NCBI GenBank assembly: GCA_015056495.1
Contig: SVGC01000010.1
Location: 1 to 64,000 of the forward strand
DNA length: 64,000 nucleotides
Direction of reading: 5' to 3'
Source: Butyrivibrio sp.
GTDB taxonomy: Bacteria; Bacillota; Clostridia; Lachnospirales; Lachnospiraceae
The notes under the pieces are model-generated. The model saw only the letters and a list, made by a program, of their open reading frames with translations. It was not told where the DNA came from and searched no databases. The translations under genes and the position numbers were made by a program. This document shows, in pieces, positions 1,720 to 12,976 of the stretch (its first letter is position 1; the number at the start of each line of letters is the position of its first letter).

Positions 1720-1944
1720 ATGAATGGTAAAACAATAAGGGAATATGTTGATGATTATATTAAATATTATCCAGAAAAATGGAGCTGGTCATTAAAGAAT
1801 TCCCTTGAACAGAGTGAAAGATATATGGAGACTAGAGCAAGGAAAAGTAAAGATTTTTATGATACAAATAATGATTTGTTGCCTGATTTTTATTCAATAG
1901 AGAGGGATGCTGCACAATTTGAGTTAAGTTATAAAGTAAACTTT
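1720..1944 (+). pseudogene. Interrupted 108-codon gene, 5' part
   Basis: The first 75 codons of a small gene (starts MNGKTIREYVDDY, GTGGAGGATG ribosome site upstream) that runs into the left end of the IS200/IS605-type element. In the present sequence the frame adds GAT-like element codons and stops at 1956. Joining base 1944 to base 5059 restores an open frame of 108 codons ending at 5160, reading KVNF then KDSKKK across the junction. The protein is charged, rich in Tyr, Lys and Asp, with no transmembrane helix or motif that I recognise. Its regulation by the divergent XRE protein is likely. Loss of function is expected while the element is present; IS605-type elements can leave precisely. 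Confidence 0.75.
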
Positions 1945-1963
1945 GGCGCAACGTAGGCGAAAA

Positions 1964-1983
1964 CCCACAGGCTTGCCTGTGGG
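1964..1983. repeat. Left-end subterminal hairpin of the element
   Basis: CCCACAGG and CCTGTGGG form an 8-bp stem with a CTTG loop. The right end has the same hairpin with one base pair swapped (A-T to G-C), so pairing is kept while sequence varies. In the IS200/IS605 family such hairpins are bound by TnpA next to the cleavage site. A T-run follows (CCTTTTT at 1990-1996), so the hairpin may also stop transcription entering from outside. Confidence 0.8.
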
Positions 1984-2060
1984 ATGAAGCCTTTTTCTAT
2001 TTTGGCAAACACATAGAACAAATATATAATCTATGTAATAAACATAAAGGAAAAATACAA

Positions 2061-2687
2061 ATGGATAATTCGAAATGCGTAGAGTATGTGAATTCTCATG
2101 TAGACGAAATTGCTGAATATGTAAATGAGTGCTTTGATCAATCAAAAGAATTCATAAAAGCAAGGCTGATTCGTCGGATAAGAGATGAATTGTCACCCAC
2201 TCCAGTTCACTATGAGATAAAATATGTCTACGATCCTTATGATCATTCTGGAATACTTGTAGAAGACGGATATATTTCGCTCGAACAGACTGTAGGAGAA
2301 TTTCTTGAAAACGAATATAGCGGAAACAAGAAAGCTACTTATGAAAGCGGTCGCGGTTGGAATTATCTTACATACGGCTATGAAATAAGTTACGATACAT
2401 TAGATATGGCATCAGATATAATGTTTTCTGCAATACGCAGACATATTGAAAATCATTTTGGTGAAAATCTTTCTGATGATGAACTTGAAGATATTCGAGA
2501 ATCCTGCAGTGATTTCGATGATATATATGTGGATTGCAAAGCCTATGATTTTTTTTGGAGTATGGGTGCTGCTGAATTTGTTGGTATTGAGGATATGCAA
2601 CTTAAAGACATTGTTAAGAAAGGGAGAAATTCTAATGGCACGACCAAAAAGCGAAAATGTACAAATCAATATCTCTATCCCAGCTGA
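2061..2687 (+). CDS. Unknown 208-residue acidic protein carried by the IS element
   Basis: First gene of the element, starting 77 bases inside the left hairpin with an AAAGGAAAAA ribosome site. The protein is soluble, acidic and rich in Tyr, Asp and Glu; two-thirds in there is an acidic stretch (NLSDDELEDIRESCSDFDDI). The last 20 residues turn basic (KKRKCTNQ) because the frame overlaps the start of the next gene by 53 bases. No transmembrane helix, nuclease motif or known domain is visible and I do not recognise the family. Close overlap with the ribbon-helix-helix gene suggests one transcript. It could be a transposition accessory factor, a toxin-like cargo or a passenger; none can be preferred from sequence. 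Confidence 0.6.
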   Translation: MDNSKCVEYVNSHVDEIAEYVNECFDQSKEFIKARLIRRIRDELSPTPVHYEIKYVYDPYDHSGILVEDGYISLEQTVGEFLENEYSGNKKATYESGRGWNYLTYGYEISYDTLDMASDIMFSAIRRHIENHFGENLSDDELEDIRESCSDFDDIYVDCKAYDFFWSMGAAEFVGIEDMQLKDIVKKGRNSNGTTKKRKCTNQYLYPS

Positions 2688-2817
2688 ATGGAAAAAGGAA
2701 CTTGAAAACCTTGCACGGATCTATTCAGTTGAGAAAGGTGAAAACGTTACTTTCCTTGATCTTATGCGCAGGGGCATTCAGGAAAAATATCAGTTAGGAG
2801 TAAAAAACAATGAGTGA
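2635..2817 (+). CDS. Ribbon-helix-helix DNA-binding protein
   Basis: A 60-residue protein beginning MARPKSENV with an AAGGGAGAA ribosome site 6-8 bases upstream. It has the Arc/MetJ-type pattern: a short basic beta-strand (NVQINISIP), helix 1 (EWKKELENLARIYS) and helix 2 (FLDLMRRGIQEKY). Such proteins dimerise and place the paired strands in the DNA major groove. The gene overlaps the upstream gene by 53 bases and the TnpA-TnpB gene by 8 bases, so it is very likely co-translated with the transposase. A natural guess is a repressor of the element or a DNA-end-binding accessory protein. A longer frame opens at 2446, but only the ATG at 2635 has a ribosome site and gives a sensible domain. Confidence 0.75.
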   Translation: MARPKSENVQINISIPAEWKKELENLARIYSVEKGENVTFLDLMRRGIQEKYQLGVKNNE

Positions 2818-4825
2818 GGGGCAATATCATAGTGCTTCACATTGTAAATATCTGACACAATACCATATTATTTGGTGTCCGAAATTCAGATTTTCTGTAT
2901 TACAGAATGGAGCTGATGACACATTAAAAGGTATCTTTATCAATATTTGTAAACAGTATGGGTACGAGATTAAAGCATTGGAAGTAATGCCCGACCATAT
3001 ACATATATTTGTAGATTGTCCTCAAACTGATGCTCCATGCGATATTGTAAGAACTCTTAAAAGTATCAGTGCTATTGAGATGTTTAGGGCATATCCGCAG
3101 TTAAAACAGTTTTACGCCCGTTGCGGAGTATTGTGGTCGAGAGGATATTTCGTATCAACAGTAGGACATATAAGCGAAGCTACAGTAAAGAAGTATATTG
3201 ATGAACAAAAAAATATGACTGACGAAGAATATAAGAAAATTTTGAAGCAATTTCATAAACTTTCCGATAGGCATATCTTGGTTGCGGAAACCGATATGCC
3301 TTATTCTGATGTCATGAAAGTCGTAACTCTTTCTGATAAAATCCGCAAGGCAGGTAATGAACTTGTTGGTCTTATGAGAAAGAATTACGACCAGCTTTTG
3401 CATACAAAACGGTATCGCAAATTACTCAGTCTTTATGGCAATACTGTAGATAAAGACAAGCGTAAGACTTTGGCAAAGCAGCTTAATGAAATGCAGTCTG
3501 AATATAATGTCACATGGGATTTTTGTAGGACTTCTATGATTCCGATAGGAAAGAAATACGGTATAGATGCCGTTTTCGCTCTTACTAAAGCAGAAGATGT
3601 CTGGCGTGGAATAGAAAAATGCCTTTATGGCAATGGGAAAACTATCAATTTCTCGAAATACGGAGAGCTTCCATGTATCAGGGCGAAACAGATAAATCGT
3701 GGCATTCCTATATCTGTTAAGGATAACAAGCTGCAATTCAAAATCAGTAATAATATCTTTGGTATACGGGTAAATGACAGGTTCCAACAAGATGAAGTGG
3801 ATGCAGTTCTATCTTATCTTGCTAACCCTAAAATTATAGATGATAAAGCGGTCGATACACTTGTAGAAGACGCATATTGCATAAATACATACAGACCTTG
3901 CTATGCCACTCTTGTTCCTAAACTGATAAGAGGCAAATATAGGTTGTATCTTCATCTGACTATTGAAGGCAAGGCGAAGCCAAAATACGATAAATACGGC
4001 GATCCAAGACATATATACGGCAAAGGAATGATAGGAGCTGATATTGGCACTCAAACGGTTGCTTATACATCCAATACCGAAGTCGGATTGAAGAATCTTT
4101 CAGAGCGCGGTAATAGTATCCAGACATCTGAGAGAAAAGAACGTATGCTCTACAGGGCTATGGACAGGTCAAGAAGAGCCACCAATCCACAGAACTATAA
4201 TGATGATGGCACTATTAAGAAAGGCCGTAAGACTTGGAAATACTCAAATCATTATAAGAGACTAAAAACTAAACATACAGAATTATGTCGTATCAATGCT
4301 GTAAACAGGCAGCTTGCTATAAATGAGGATGCAAATCACTTACGGAGTCTTGGAGATGTTTTTGTAACTGAGCCTAAAAATGCAAGTAAGTTGATGAAAC
4401 GGACTAAAGAAACTACGGTCAACAGTAAAGGCAAGTTCAATAAGAAAAAGCGTTTTGGTAAATCCATAAAGAATAGATGCCCTTCGGGATTTCAGACTAC
4501 AGTAGAAAAGAAGTTCAAGGTCACGGGTGGCATGTATATAGAAGTTCCGAATAATTACAGGGCAAGCCAGTATGACCATACATCCGATGATTATATCAAA
4601 AAGAAATTGTCTGACAGGATGTATAAACTCACAGACGGAACTTTAGTGCAGAGAGACTGGTATTCATCATATCTACTCTACTGCTACGATTGCAGGACAC
4701 AAAGTATAGACAAGAACAAATGTATAACTGAATTCGATAAACATTACAACAAAGAAAAAGCCCTAATCACATGGATTAAGGCTAATAAGATAAAAATATT
4801 AAACAGCGGAATCAAAGTAGCTTAA
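2810..4825 (+). CDS. Fused TnpA (Y1/HUH transposase) - TnpB (RuvC nuclease)
   Basis: One 671-residue protein covers two usually separate IS605 proteins. Residues 1-145 are a complete Y1 transposase: the HUH metal site is PDHIHIF (His63, His65), and the catalytic tyrosine is in VKKYIDEQ (Tyr129), after WSRGYFVSTVG. Residues about 150-660 are TnpB-like: RuvC-I IGADIGTQT (Asp411), RuvC-II FVTEPKNASKLMK (Glu521) and RuvC-III VQRDWYSSY (Asp616). The canonical Cys4 zinc finger between RuvC-II and RuvC-III is missing, replaced by a Lys/Asp-rich loop; two cysteines (Cys625, Cys628) follow Asp616 instead. No stop or frameshift lies between the parts. TnpA would cut and join single strands at the hairpin ends; TnpB would be an RNA-guided nuclease if it still binds RNA. 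Confidence 0.88.
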   Translation: MSEGQYHSASHCKYLTQYHIIWCPKFRFSVLQNGADDTLKGIFINICKQYGYEIKALEVMPDHIHIFVDCPQTDAPCDIVRTLKSISAIEMFRAYPQLKQFYARCGVLWSRGYFVSTVGHISEATVKKYIDEQKNMTDEEYKKILKQFHKLSDRHILVAETDMPYSDVMKVVTLSDKIRKAGNELVGLMRKNYDQLLHTKRYRKLLSLYGNTVDKDKRKTLAKQLNEMQSEYNVTWDFCRTSMIPIGKKYGIDAVFALTKAEDVWRGIEKCLYGNGKTINFSKYGELPCIRAKQINRGIPISVKDNKLQFKISNNIFGIRVNDRFQQDEVDAVLSYLANPKIIDDKAVDTLVEDAYCINTYRPCYATLVPKLIRGKYRLYLHLTIEGKAKPKYDKYGDPRHIYGKGMIGADIGTQTVAYTSNTEVGLKNLSERGNSIQTSERKERMLYRAMDRSRRATNPQNYNDDGTIKKGRKTWKYSNHYKRLKTKHTELCRINAVNRQLAINEDANHLRSLGDVFVTEPKNASKLMKRTKETTVNSKGKFNKKKRFGKSIKNRCPSGFQTTVEKKFKVTGGMYIEVPNNYRASQYDHTSDDYIKKKLSDRMYKLTDGTLVQRDWYSSYLLYCYDCRTQSIDKNKCITEFDKHYNKEKALITWIKANKIKILNSGIKVA

Positions 4826-5058
4826 CAACCTAATATTGGGCGATTGACTGTACGCCCTTGTCGCAAGACAGAAATTTACCGCTTTCTGATGATAATGTAA
4901 TTATCAGAGTAATGTAGTCGTTGGACTGCTTGGTAATAAAAGTCCTGATTCAAACAGATTTACACTTGTAACTCCAAAGCCTGAAAATGGTGTACGATTA
5001 CAAGCTACGCTTGGTAATCAGAACCCCACGGGCTTGCCCGTGGGAGCAGTCAGATTTT
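4826..5058 (+). ncRNA. Candidate omega-RNA / right end of the element
   Basis: The 233 bases between the tnpB stop and the right edge have no convincing gene and several stems: GGGCG/CGCCC (4838-4857), TGATAAT/ATTATCA with a 3-base loop (4890-4906), and the right-end hairpin (5025-5044). In known TnpB systems the guide RNA is made from exactly this place, with the guide taken from flanking DNA after the right end, here starting at or near 5056-5059 with AAAGATTCT. The identity is inferred from position and structure only. Expression and binding to TnpB are untested, and the unusual TnpB may use no RNA at all. Confidence 0.5.
5025..5044. repeat. Right-end subterminal hairpin of the element
   Basis: CCCACGGG and CCCGTGGG form an 8-bp stem with a CTTG loop, the same as the left-end hairpin except for one compensating base-pair change. 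The likely cleavage site is 11-14 bases to the right, at about 5055-5058. Confidence 0.8.
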
Positions 5059-5160
5059 AAAGATTCTAAAAAGAAAATTTCAATATCTGTTGAGGACGAT
5101 GTGCTTAATACAGAAGATTTATTCTATTTATTAAAAACTAATGGGATTTCAATTAAATAG
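5059..5160 (+). pseudogene. Interrupted 108-codon gene, 3' part
   Basis: The last 33 codons of the gene split by the element. The frame starts KDSKKKISIS, continues with an acidic stretch (VEDDVLNTED) and ends at the TAG at 5158-5160. There is no start codon or ribosome site, so it is not expressed alone. Together with 1720-1944 it gives a 108-residue protein of unknown function. Confidence 0.7.
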
Positions 5161-11519: not shown

Positions 11520-12830
11520 ATGGGATTTGATTTTTTTAATAGACCTATTTTGAAAGAGAGCTATAAGCAAAAGCTGGGATCTTTCGTTGAAACTTTGGGA
11601 AATGCAATTGGAAAAGGAGAGAAAATCTCTTTTGCAGATAATGATATAACTTATGCTATATCTCTCCAAAATAAGCGTATACAGGACAAGGGACTCTCAA
11701 TGGACTACACGGTCACAGACAGAGATCTGAATGAAGGTCCCAGTATATTGTATAATCGTAAAGACGTACATTACGATAGTGCGGTATGCTATGAGGCATT
11801 CAAGGTAAACAGGAAGCTGACCAGAAATGAAAGAAAGCTTTTTGCTGATAAGACTTTAAACGAACTATATACGACCATCACAGATGTTGCTACCGGAATA
11901 CATCCGGATAATGAGGCCTATTCCTGCCCTAACTGCGGCAATGTAAGTACTGTTGCAGGACTGCAAAACGGTTGCCCATACTGCGGAACCATGTACAAGA
12001 TGGACGACCTGTTTCCAAAGATCACAGGATATTTTTTTCAGGAAGACTATGAGCTAAATAATAAAGAATTCAAAAAAGGTGAAGGACGACCGATGATCCT
12101 GGGAGTTATAATTGCACTCATATATGGATTCTTTTTGGTTTTTAGTGACTGTTCATATTTCACGGAGGAAAGATTTTTAAGTACACCAGGTAGAATACGT
12201 GAGTTTATTTTTCAGATTCTGTTTGTGTTAGTATTTTTTTCTATGATTGGTATGTTTGCTGCCAGAGTGGTTTTCTTTGCCTATTATATTATTCGTATGA
12301 ATATTATTGGGTTTAGAAATATTAGTGCCCGAGGATTAAGTGGTTCCATGTGGAAGTTTGAAAAAAATATGAAGCAATATTGCCCTGAATTTTCATATGA
12401 TTATTTTACCAGCAAGGCAATTTCCATGATCAAGACTGCCATTTATTCTGGTAATGCGCAGGAATTATTGTTTTATAAAGGTGAACAGCTTGCACCATCA
12501 TTTAAGGATATAATAGACATGAATTACATCGGCGGCTGGAAACTAAAAAATTTTAGCGTGGAAAATGGCGTTGCCACCCTCAAGGCACAGGTATATTTTG
12601 ATGTATTATATGCTACTAACAGTAAGGTCAGAAAAAAATATGAGAAATTCACGGCTGTTTTTCGCAGAAGAGTTGACAGACCTATCAATCTGAATTTCTC
12701 AATGACCAAGATACAATGTCCTGATTGCGGCAGCAGCTTCAATGCAGTTCATAACAAAATATGCCCATACTGCGGTCAGCCATATGATATCGAATCTCAG
12801 GACTGGGTACTTATGGAGCTTACAAAATGA
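11520..12830 (+). CDS. Zinc-ribbon membrane protein with Tim44-like domain
   Basis: A 436-residue protein with two zinc ribbons: YSCPNCG...GCPYCG (about residues 140-160) and IQCPDCG...ICPYCG (about 405-425). Between them are two transmembrane helices (about 193-212 and 228-262) and a region (MWKFEKNMKQYCPEFSYDYF...MIKTAIYSGN) that looks like the Tim44-like/import-associated fold seen in many bacterial membrane proteins. The C-terminal ribbon closes the protein. Zinc binding is likely; the biological role is not known. The start has an AAAGGATTTTGTT site. The stop codon TGA at 12828-12830 lies inside the palindromic repeat that follows (AAATGAGTCA). Confidence 0.65.
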   Translation: MGFDFFNRPILKESYKQKLGSFVETLGNAIGKGEKISFADNDITYAISLQNKRIQDKGLSMDYTVTDRDLNEGPSILYNRKDVHYDSAVCYEAFKVNRKLTRNERKLFADKTLNELYTTITDVATGIHPDNEAYSCPNCGNVSTVAGLQNGCPYCGTMYKMDDLFPKITGYFFQEDYELNNKEFKKGEGRPMILGVIIALIYGFFLVFSDCSYFTEERFLSTPGRIREFIFQILFVLVFFSMIGMFAARVVFFAYYIIRMNIIGFRNISARGLSGSMWKFEKNMKQYCPEFSYDYFTSKAISMIKTAIYSGNAQELLFYKGEQLAPSFKDIIDMNYIGGWKLKNFSVENGVATLKAQVYFDVLYATNSKVRKKYEKFTAVFRRRVDRPINLNFSMTKIQCPDCGSSFNAVHNKICPYCGQPYDIESQDWVLMELTK

Positions 12831-12939
12831 GTCACCGGGGACGTATCAAATTGACTCATTGCGCACAATGAGTCACTGGGGACGTATCAAATCGACTCAT
12901 TGCATACAATGAGTCATTTTGATACGTCACCGCTGACTC
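12827..12939. repeat. Palindromic intergenic repeat, family A, doubled
   Basis: Two direct copies of a unit reading AATGAGTCACYGGGGACGTA then TCAAATYGACTCATTGC (starting at 12827 and 12868), followed by a partial inverted copy, AATGAGTCATTTTGATACGT. The outer arms TGAGTCA and TGACTCA pair. The upstream gene's stop codon falls in the first ATGAGTCA. About 37 bases of ordinary sequence with a GGAGGA ribosome site then lead to the next gene. Confidence 0.8.
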
Positions 12940-12976
12940 ACCCTATTTATCAGAAAAAGAAATACTGGAGGACAAC

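Follow-up and report, generated by a model that had tools for sequence, protein, structure and literature searches.

The locus described here raises the question of whether a single open reading frame, in which a complete HUH transposase (TnpA) passes into a TnpB-like RuvC protein, represents a natural fusion or two normally separate genes that have become joined. The window referred to throughout is the whole stretch of Butyrivibrio DNA that was analysed, 64,000 nucleotides in length. The reading preferred, with a probability of about 0.9, is that of one IS200/IS605-type copy with normally separate TnpA and TnpB-like proteins, joined in this instance by a single missing A, whether lost from the copy or from its assembly; judged by sequence comparison, the fusion as read is probably an ordinary mutation or a sequence error at the joint. 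The features of the joined genes are as follows.

2810..4825, + strand: tnpA-tnpB as a single 671-codon ORF (translation, no stop)
2996..3196, + strand: codons for HUH His63/His65 and catalytic Tyr129 (residue mapping)
3207..3213, + strand: A7 run at the tnpA/tnpB joint, A8 in relatives L006, L007 and L057 (alignment)
3215..4825, + strand: tnpB, 536 aa, starting at an ATG of its own, no zinc ribbon (alignment, fold, residue mapping)
4040-4042, 4370-4372 and 4655-4657, + strand: RuvC codons Asp411, Glu521 and Asp616, respectively (residue mapping)

Translation of 2810..4825 on the + strand bore out the uninterrupted frame of the original prediction, 671 codons with zero stops, and His63, His65, Tyr129, Asp411, Glu521 and Asp616 were all located where they had been placed. 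The N-terminal part of the protein is an IS200-type Y1 transposase with both the HUH motif and the tyrosine, matched by Pfam Y1_Tnp over residues 13-133 (E = 9e-35) and by NCBIfam transpos_IS200 over residues 6-132 (E = 3e-40). Among 50 TnpA loci with a best match extending over the position concerned, histidine was kept at His63 in 47 and at His65 in 47, and tyrosine at Tyr129 in 49. As TnpA is undamaged through and past Tyr129, activity of the fused protein is possible in principle.

Taken together, sequence and model indicate a divergent TnpB-like RuvC protein, lacking a zinc ribbon and presumably a nuclease, in the C-terminal half. Its D/E/D triad was invariant in all 45 aligned rows, in which the window is present twice, as itself and as L001. 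Neither Pfam nor NCBIfam gave a TnpB match for this half; the NCBIfam model NF040570 (guided_TnpB) matched 5 of 33 aligned relatives, the window protein not being among them. PHROG 506, labelled 'transposase', matched residues 359-630 (E = 2.1e-16), and many of the named best matches from the viral library were likewise transposases, one of them being called TnpB-like. A profile search of the PDB with this half returned a weak match alone (9j09, E = 2.4e-4). The AlphaFold model (pLDDT 82.5, pTM 0.50) has a predicted TnpB-like fold, its top PDB fold matches being TnpB and Cas12f structures. The best two were the ISFba1 TnpB (8iaz, E = 8.4e-13), yet with 14% identity, and the ISDra2 TnpB (8h1j, E = 1.3e-12), yet with 12% identity, the corresponding TM-scores being modest at 0.42 and 0.38 by query length and 0.54 and 0.52 by target length. 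The sole cysteine of the window protein between Glu521 and Asp616 is residue 557, so that a zinc ribbon is absent, and no CxxC..CxxC pattern was seen in the aligned core TnpB family when read by eye. The term 'TnpB-like' is used because of this missing C-terminal zinc ribbon.

The limits of the element, which spans about 1928-5053, were established by comparison with relatives, and comprise the following.

1720..1932, + strand: 5' remnant of an interrupted gene, 71 codons (homologues)
1928..1934, + strand: GTTATAA, left boundary, either a target-side/TAM-like motif or the first left-end bases (left-end comparison)
1964..1983, + strand: left-end subterminal hairpin, CCCACAGGCTTGCCTGTGGG (left-end alignment)
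4838..5053, + strand: omegaRNA/reRNA-like scaffold with a pseudoknot, ending at the right end (covariation)
5024..5045, + strand: right-end hairpin (right-end alignment)
5049..5053, + strand: GTCAG, the final conserved right-end bases (right-end comparison)

Of 31 left ends extracted by their BLAST coordinates, 30 have GTTATAA at the boundary, preceded by flanks that are unrelated to one another; within this set L028 and L061 show identical sequence, and the sole exception was L050, with GTTTATAA. The right ends of relatives stop at or near GTCAG, after the hairpin. Relatives, too, have subterminal hairpins at each end, and by eye there were no terminal inverted repeats. The interrupted gene is represented in 2 of 40 further genomes of the genus by homologues whose open frames run to 246-248 codons. 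Its C-terminal part was absent from the right flank (5054-5160) and was not found elsewhere in the same genome, in a search conducted without a positive control, and no clean empty site was found; either insertion with loss of flank or a later deletion would account for the missing remainder.

In ISDra2, the guide RNA derives from the right end. An alignment of the corresponding region from 30 of 44 printed right ends (mean column identity 80%, the L021 row being a few bases short) yielded a structure of 49 pairs that formed in 99.1% of 1464 cells across the 30 sequences, a figure favoured by the structure having been derived mainly from the alignment that scores it. Two-sided changes were observed in 21 of the 49 pairs, and all 49 form in the window. 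None of 500 shuffles reached any of the measures, and slid versions attained at most 52%. The pseudoknot combines a GGGCG/CGCCC helix, added by inspection, with a stem closing on the right-end GCAGTCA. No Rfam model matched within the window at its gathering score. The scaffold is covarying, pseudoknotted and guide-RNA-like, with a putative guide role, for which the flank from 5054 onward would serve as the guide. An extra hairpin at 4884-4908 (TTCTGATGATAATGTAATTATCAGA) occurs, among the 30 aligned sequences, in the window, L006 and L018 only.

Three sources supplied the relatives: a peptide-pattern scan over 84,980 species genomes, with 52 loci; a set of 299 genomes from the family, in which 12 matched at E 1e-40 or better, the window's own being one of them; and viral contigs, with 2 loci. 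Entries were retained where the best TnpA match reached residue 120 and the TnpB match started no more than 6 residues from the start of the query, loci with a single half and those cut by a contig end thereby lying outside the set. The resultant 43 entries count the window twice (as itself and as L001) and three other places twice (L057/L069, L061/L070 and L063/L071), with further possible duplicates, such as L028 and L061, or L007 and L057, that may be the same record. In 40 of the 43 the tnpA and tnpB frames differ, a result that does not support the natural architecture, coupling excision to cutting, that had been proposed for the fused frame. The remaining three are the window, its duplicate L001, and L005, considered and rejected as a second fusion in that its frame is common only via a frameshift midway in tnpA, with an internal stop. 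No recurrence with both catalytic sites intact, as expected of a conserved TnpA-TnpB fusion family, was found among the 43 entries.

The frames themselves, and the difference at the joint, could be read directly. In the nearest relative, L006, which is ~98% identical to the window in both halves, TnpA ends ..EQKKYD followed by a stop, and the window has one A fewer in the homopolymer at the junction. The A7 of the window set against the A8 of its nearest relatives identifies the joint as either a private one-nucleotide deletion or a homopolymer error. In most other printed relatives the A stretch is interrupted by G, T or C and contains no run of 7 or more, a typical junction site being CAGAAAAATCATG or similar. 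The tnpB ATG sits within the end of tnpA, the nearest relatives reading ATGACTGA, and is retained in the window at 3215. By a first-ATG rule, the overlap between the two genes was exactly 8 nt in 26 of the 40 out-of-frame entries and from 4 to 44 nt in the others. GAGG precedes the tnpB ATG in most relatives, and its replacement by GATG in the window and L006 suggests that initiation at tnpB itself may be weaker there. In several of the out-of-frame relatives (L007, L057/L069, L010, L011, L016, L033, L038, L041 and L062) tnpA is short or broken, with 4 to 87 open codons at the TnpA end, so that not all 40 are working two-gene elements.

Wider searches were also unfavourable to the original prediction, against which the lack of any fused homologue was to count: no other intact fusion was found in the sets searched. 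With Y1_Tnp as the query, 151 of 299 genomes from the phylum had a match, and among the matches listed there were, besides the window, at least three frames of over 300 codons. One of these, G541 (L098, contig C107, 1717-3798, - strand), is a second TnpA-TnpB read-through, of 693 codons; it was rejected as an intact fusion, being the product of a frameshift at a G7 homopolymer that leaves the Tyr helix in a different frame and so lost from the protein. Another, G449, joins TnpA not to TnpB but to a stretch that by our own reading is recombinase-like, and the third, G407, is an N-terminally open frame with a separate tnpB. Matches were recorded in 80 of 50,697 phage records and 1702 of 72,556 plasmid records, of which, among the 15 best listed in each case, 5 and 6 respectively covered at least 80% of the query in one place. 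Ten of these 11 records were split into two BLAST pieces, including H1, with separate genes overlapping by 8 nt, and H5, in which the TnpB-like gene is annotated without a joined TnpA; the other, H16 from a Pontibacillus plasmid, gave one BLAST piece over both halves and is annotated as two genes. No fused record was encountered among the 11, with annotations viewed for H16, H1 and H5. Searches of open-access papers yielded no natural TnpA-TnpB fusion, hence a weak negative: in the available portion of PMC8612924 the wording 'tnpB fused' refers to an expression tag, and the tnpAB of PMC3414803 belongs, in the part accessible, to Tn554-like elements.

These results bear unequally on the alternative explanations for the joint. 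That an A was dropped in sequencing or assembly, tnpA and tnpB being two normal genes in the cell, overlaps with the preferred reading and is unlikely, if far from negligible: the difference sits in a homopolymer, where mistakes of this kind are common, and A8 is what the nearest relatives carry. The window contains 28 homopolymers of 7 or more, 17 of which, counting the one at the junction, lie within ORFs of 200 aa or longer and 11 outside; the 16 other runs inside open ORFs argue mildly against a poor assembly, but the count is in part circular, an ORF being open by definition and a gene-breaking run falling outside. Selection for a tether between TnpA and TnpB, by which excision would be coupled to renewed guided cutting at the empty site, is a very improbable explanation despite the two intact catalytic sites and the uninterrupted frame, given that the fusion is intact in one place only and that the long TnpA frames listed from the 299 phylum genomes supplied just one more joint, from which the Tyr helix has been lost. 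The substitutions separating the window from L006 add no sign that selection has kept the copy. With 11 residue-changing and 3 synonymous codons among the 536 of tnpB, and 2 residue-changing and 3 synonymous among the 133 of tnpA, the differences are few, and purifying selection since the split appears to have left no sign in them. Least probable of all is programmed slippage, in which relatives with A8 would make some fusion protein and the window would have fixed the slippage product. A8 is indeed found in L006, L007 and L057, but most printed relatives contain no run of 7 or more; the family has thus not conserved the run, as it would if a slippage signal were being kept at this site.

According to the preferred reading, that of a single missing A in an otherwise ordinary copy, the element in its normal form would comprise a small HUH/Y1 TnpA, a separate TnpB-like RuvC nuclease and a right-end guide-RNA-like scaffold, and rhh (the ribbon-helix-helix-like gene considered below), tnpA and tnpB, which overlap by a few bases, are probably translationally coupled. 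With one A gone from the A8 that closely precedes the stop codon of tnpA, ribosomes translating tnpA would continue into tnpB, the likely products being a TnpA::TnpB read-through protein together with some ordinary TnpB initiated at the internal ATG. Free TnpA would be scarce, TnpA being made mainly as read-through into TnpB. We infer both this effect and all of the activities concerned: by analogy with ISDra2, TnpA would excise and insert single-stranded DNA at the hairpin ends, and TnpB, with a guide supplied by the right flank, would cut the vacated donor site again.

The available portions of the relevant accounts describe ISDra2 as having partially overlapping tnpA and tnpB genes, a Y1/HUH TnpA with tnpB downstream, and palindromic ends (PMC8612924), and its TnpA as excising the element as single-stranded DNA, TnpB being unneeded for excision (PMC8612924, PMC2806898). 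On that evidence the two elements are alike in their Y1/HUH TnpA, overlapping downstream tnpB and palindromic ends. Unlike ISDra2, the window element has a longer TnpB (536 aa) without zinc-ribbon cysteines, has an rhh-like and a passenger gene before tnpA, and has its frames joined. A 2018 survey of HUH proteins noted and discarded cases of TnpA-Y1 gene fusions or annotation errors (PMC6006769); these were also unexpectedly long TnpA-Y1 proteins, and TnpB is not named as a partner in the accessible part of that survey.

If true, the claimed fusion would constitute a transposase and a guided nuclease in a single chain. As matters stand, the window and G541 are two cases that serve as a warning that homopolymer indels in overlapping tnpA/tnpB genes can give apparent fusions, and the family around the joint matters more than the fusion itself. 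That family is a moderately interesting variant of IS200/IS605, taken here as new, and its lineage provides a zinc-ribbon-less TnpB-like protein together with a well-defined covarying RNA. The available part of PMC8612924 states that IS200/IS605 and IS607 elements hold only genes for transposition and regulation, and the window lineage differs from that partial account in its interchangeable passengers and recombination between copies. The members identified here were mostly Lachnospiraceae and Erysipelotrichaceae records, with some from spirochaetes. The features upstream of tnpA are as follows.

2002..2030, + strand: promoter-like TTGGCA-17-TATAAT, 11/12 (motif scan)
2012..2035, no strand assigned: palindrome CATAGA..TCTATG over the -10 box, proposed operator (left-end comparison)
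2061..2687, + strand: 208-aa passenger (cargo) ORF that matched no family convincingly (ORF list, relatives)
2635..2817, + strand: 60-aa ribbon-helix-helix-like gene (rhh), overlapping tnpA by 8 nt, ATGAGTGA (alignment, model)

A promoter-like site lies in a similar place in relatives; the region as a whole contained 12 such sites against 12.2 expected from shuffles, and hence no excess. Allowing one mismatch at most, 33 of the 40 distinct left ends carry the palindrome, compared with a mean of 0.06 after shuffling, and 4 of the 40 lack it even at two mismatches; as the left ends are related, the count demonstrates conservation rather than independent origin. The 40 were drawn from 47 of the 56 rhh-bearing entries, the other 9 having no left end detected by the script. 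An rhh match was present in 56 of 76 records, with 90% mean conservation across 12 aligned members. Nothing above the Pfam cut-off and no meaningful PDB sequence match was obtained for the rhh protein; it looks like a ribbon-helix-helix protein, its low-confidence model (pLDDT 58.8) having an extended segment followed by two helices. The protein is a putative repressor of its own operon, which would act at the palindrome.

The extra DNA between the left end and rhh ranged from 0 to about 590 nt across relatives. In 10 of 47 entries, which count one place twice and perhaps a second, just 121-126 nt separate GTTATAA from rhh, leaving no room for a gene. At least four unrelated passenger families occupy the same slot elsewhere: one of 195-208 aa (208 aa in the window, with 195-aa versions in L018, L021 and L039), one of 150-176 aa (L017, L075, L074 and L004, a copy in the window's own genome), a cysteine-containing family of ~120-150 aa (L006, L010, L033, L014 and L032, and broken in L013) and a cysteine-rich family of 46-48 aa (L052, L041 and L031). 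L055 and L051 each have a single-case passenger, and some slots are without a clear ORF. Six passengers compared with Pfam and PHROGs gave no convincing match, and no account of passenger genes or of a ribbon-helix-helix gene in IS605 elements was apparent in searches of open-access papers, a weak negative.

The window copy is itself a mosaic, agreeing with L018/L021 in its left end, passenger and rhh-like gene and with L006 from tnpA through tnpB to the right end. In 100-base steps over 2001-2800 it is 96-100% identical to L018/L021 and at most 78% to L006, whereas over 2901-5060 it is 95-100% identical to L006 (at least 97% up to 5000) and 58-95% to L018/L021. Sites at 2600-2839 that distinguish L018 from L006 follow L018 except at 2646, 2694, 2804 and 2806, and those printed for 2856-2950 all follow L006, the switch point lying at 2839-2856, within tnpA. 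A comparable case is provided by L074 and L010, which are 98.9% identical over 283 nt from the rhh start and have passengers that do not match. Together, the mosaic copy in the window and the L074/L010 pair indicate that exchange of left end and passenger has been recent and has occurred more than once. Recombination stimulated by TnpB is a conjectural cause of such module exchange. A more general model is offered tentatively, as possible though somewhat doubtful: a lineage of modular carriers with an rhh autorepressor acting on the palindrome over the left-end promoter, a slot behind that promoter for swappable passengers, and a guided, zinc-ribbon-less TnpB whose recutting of sites without the element would drive swaps of left end and passenger such as the one in the window copy.

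Several copies in the wider lineage are reduced. Three from Bullifex porci (L023, L025 and L027) are without tnpA, which indicates that copies without TnpA have multiplied, and in L023 and L027 the first 37 rhh codons continue in frame into tnpB. L004, on contig C64 of the window's own genome, is a decayed copy with a different passenger, a truncated rhh and a retained right end, tnpA and most of tnpB being missing. Elsewhere in the window, a palindromic repeat of ~115-120 bp occupies 12824-12943, and six more examples are listed from elsewhere in that genome, on other contigs; the copies are 92-97% identical, and also match on the opposite strand at ~79-82%.
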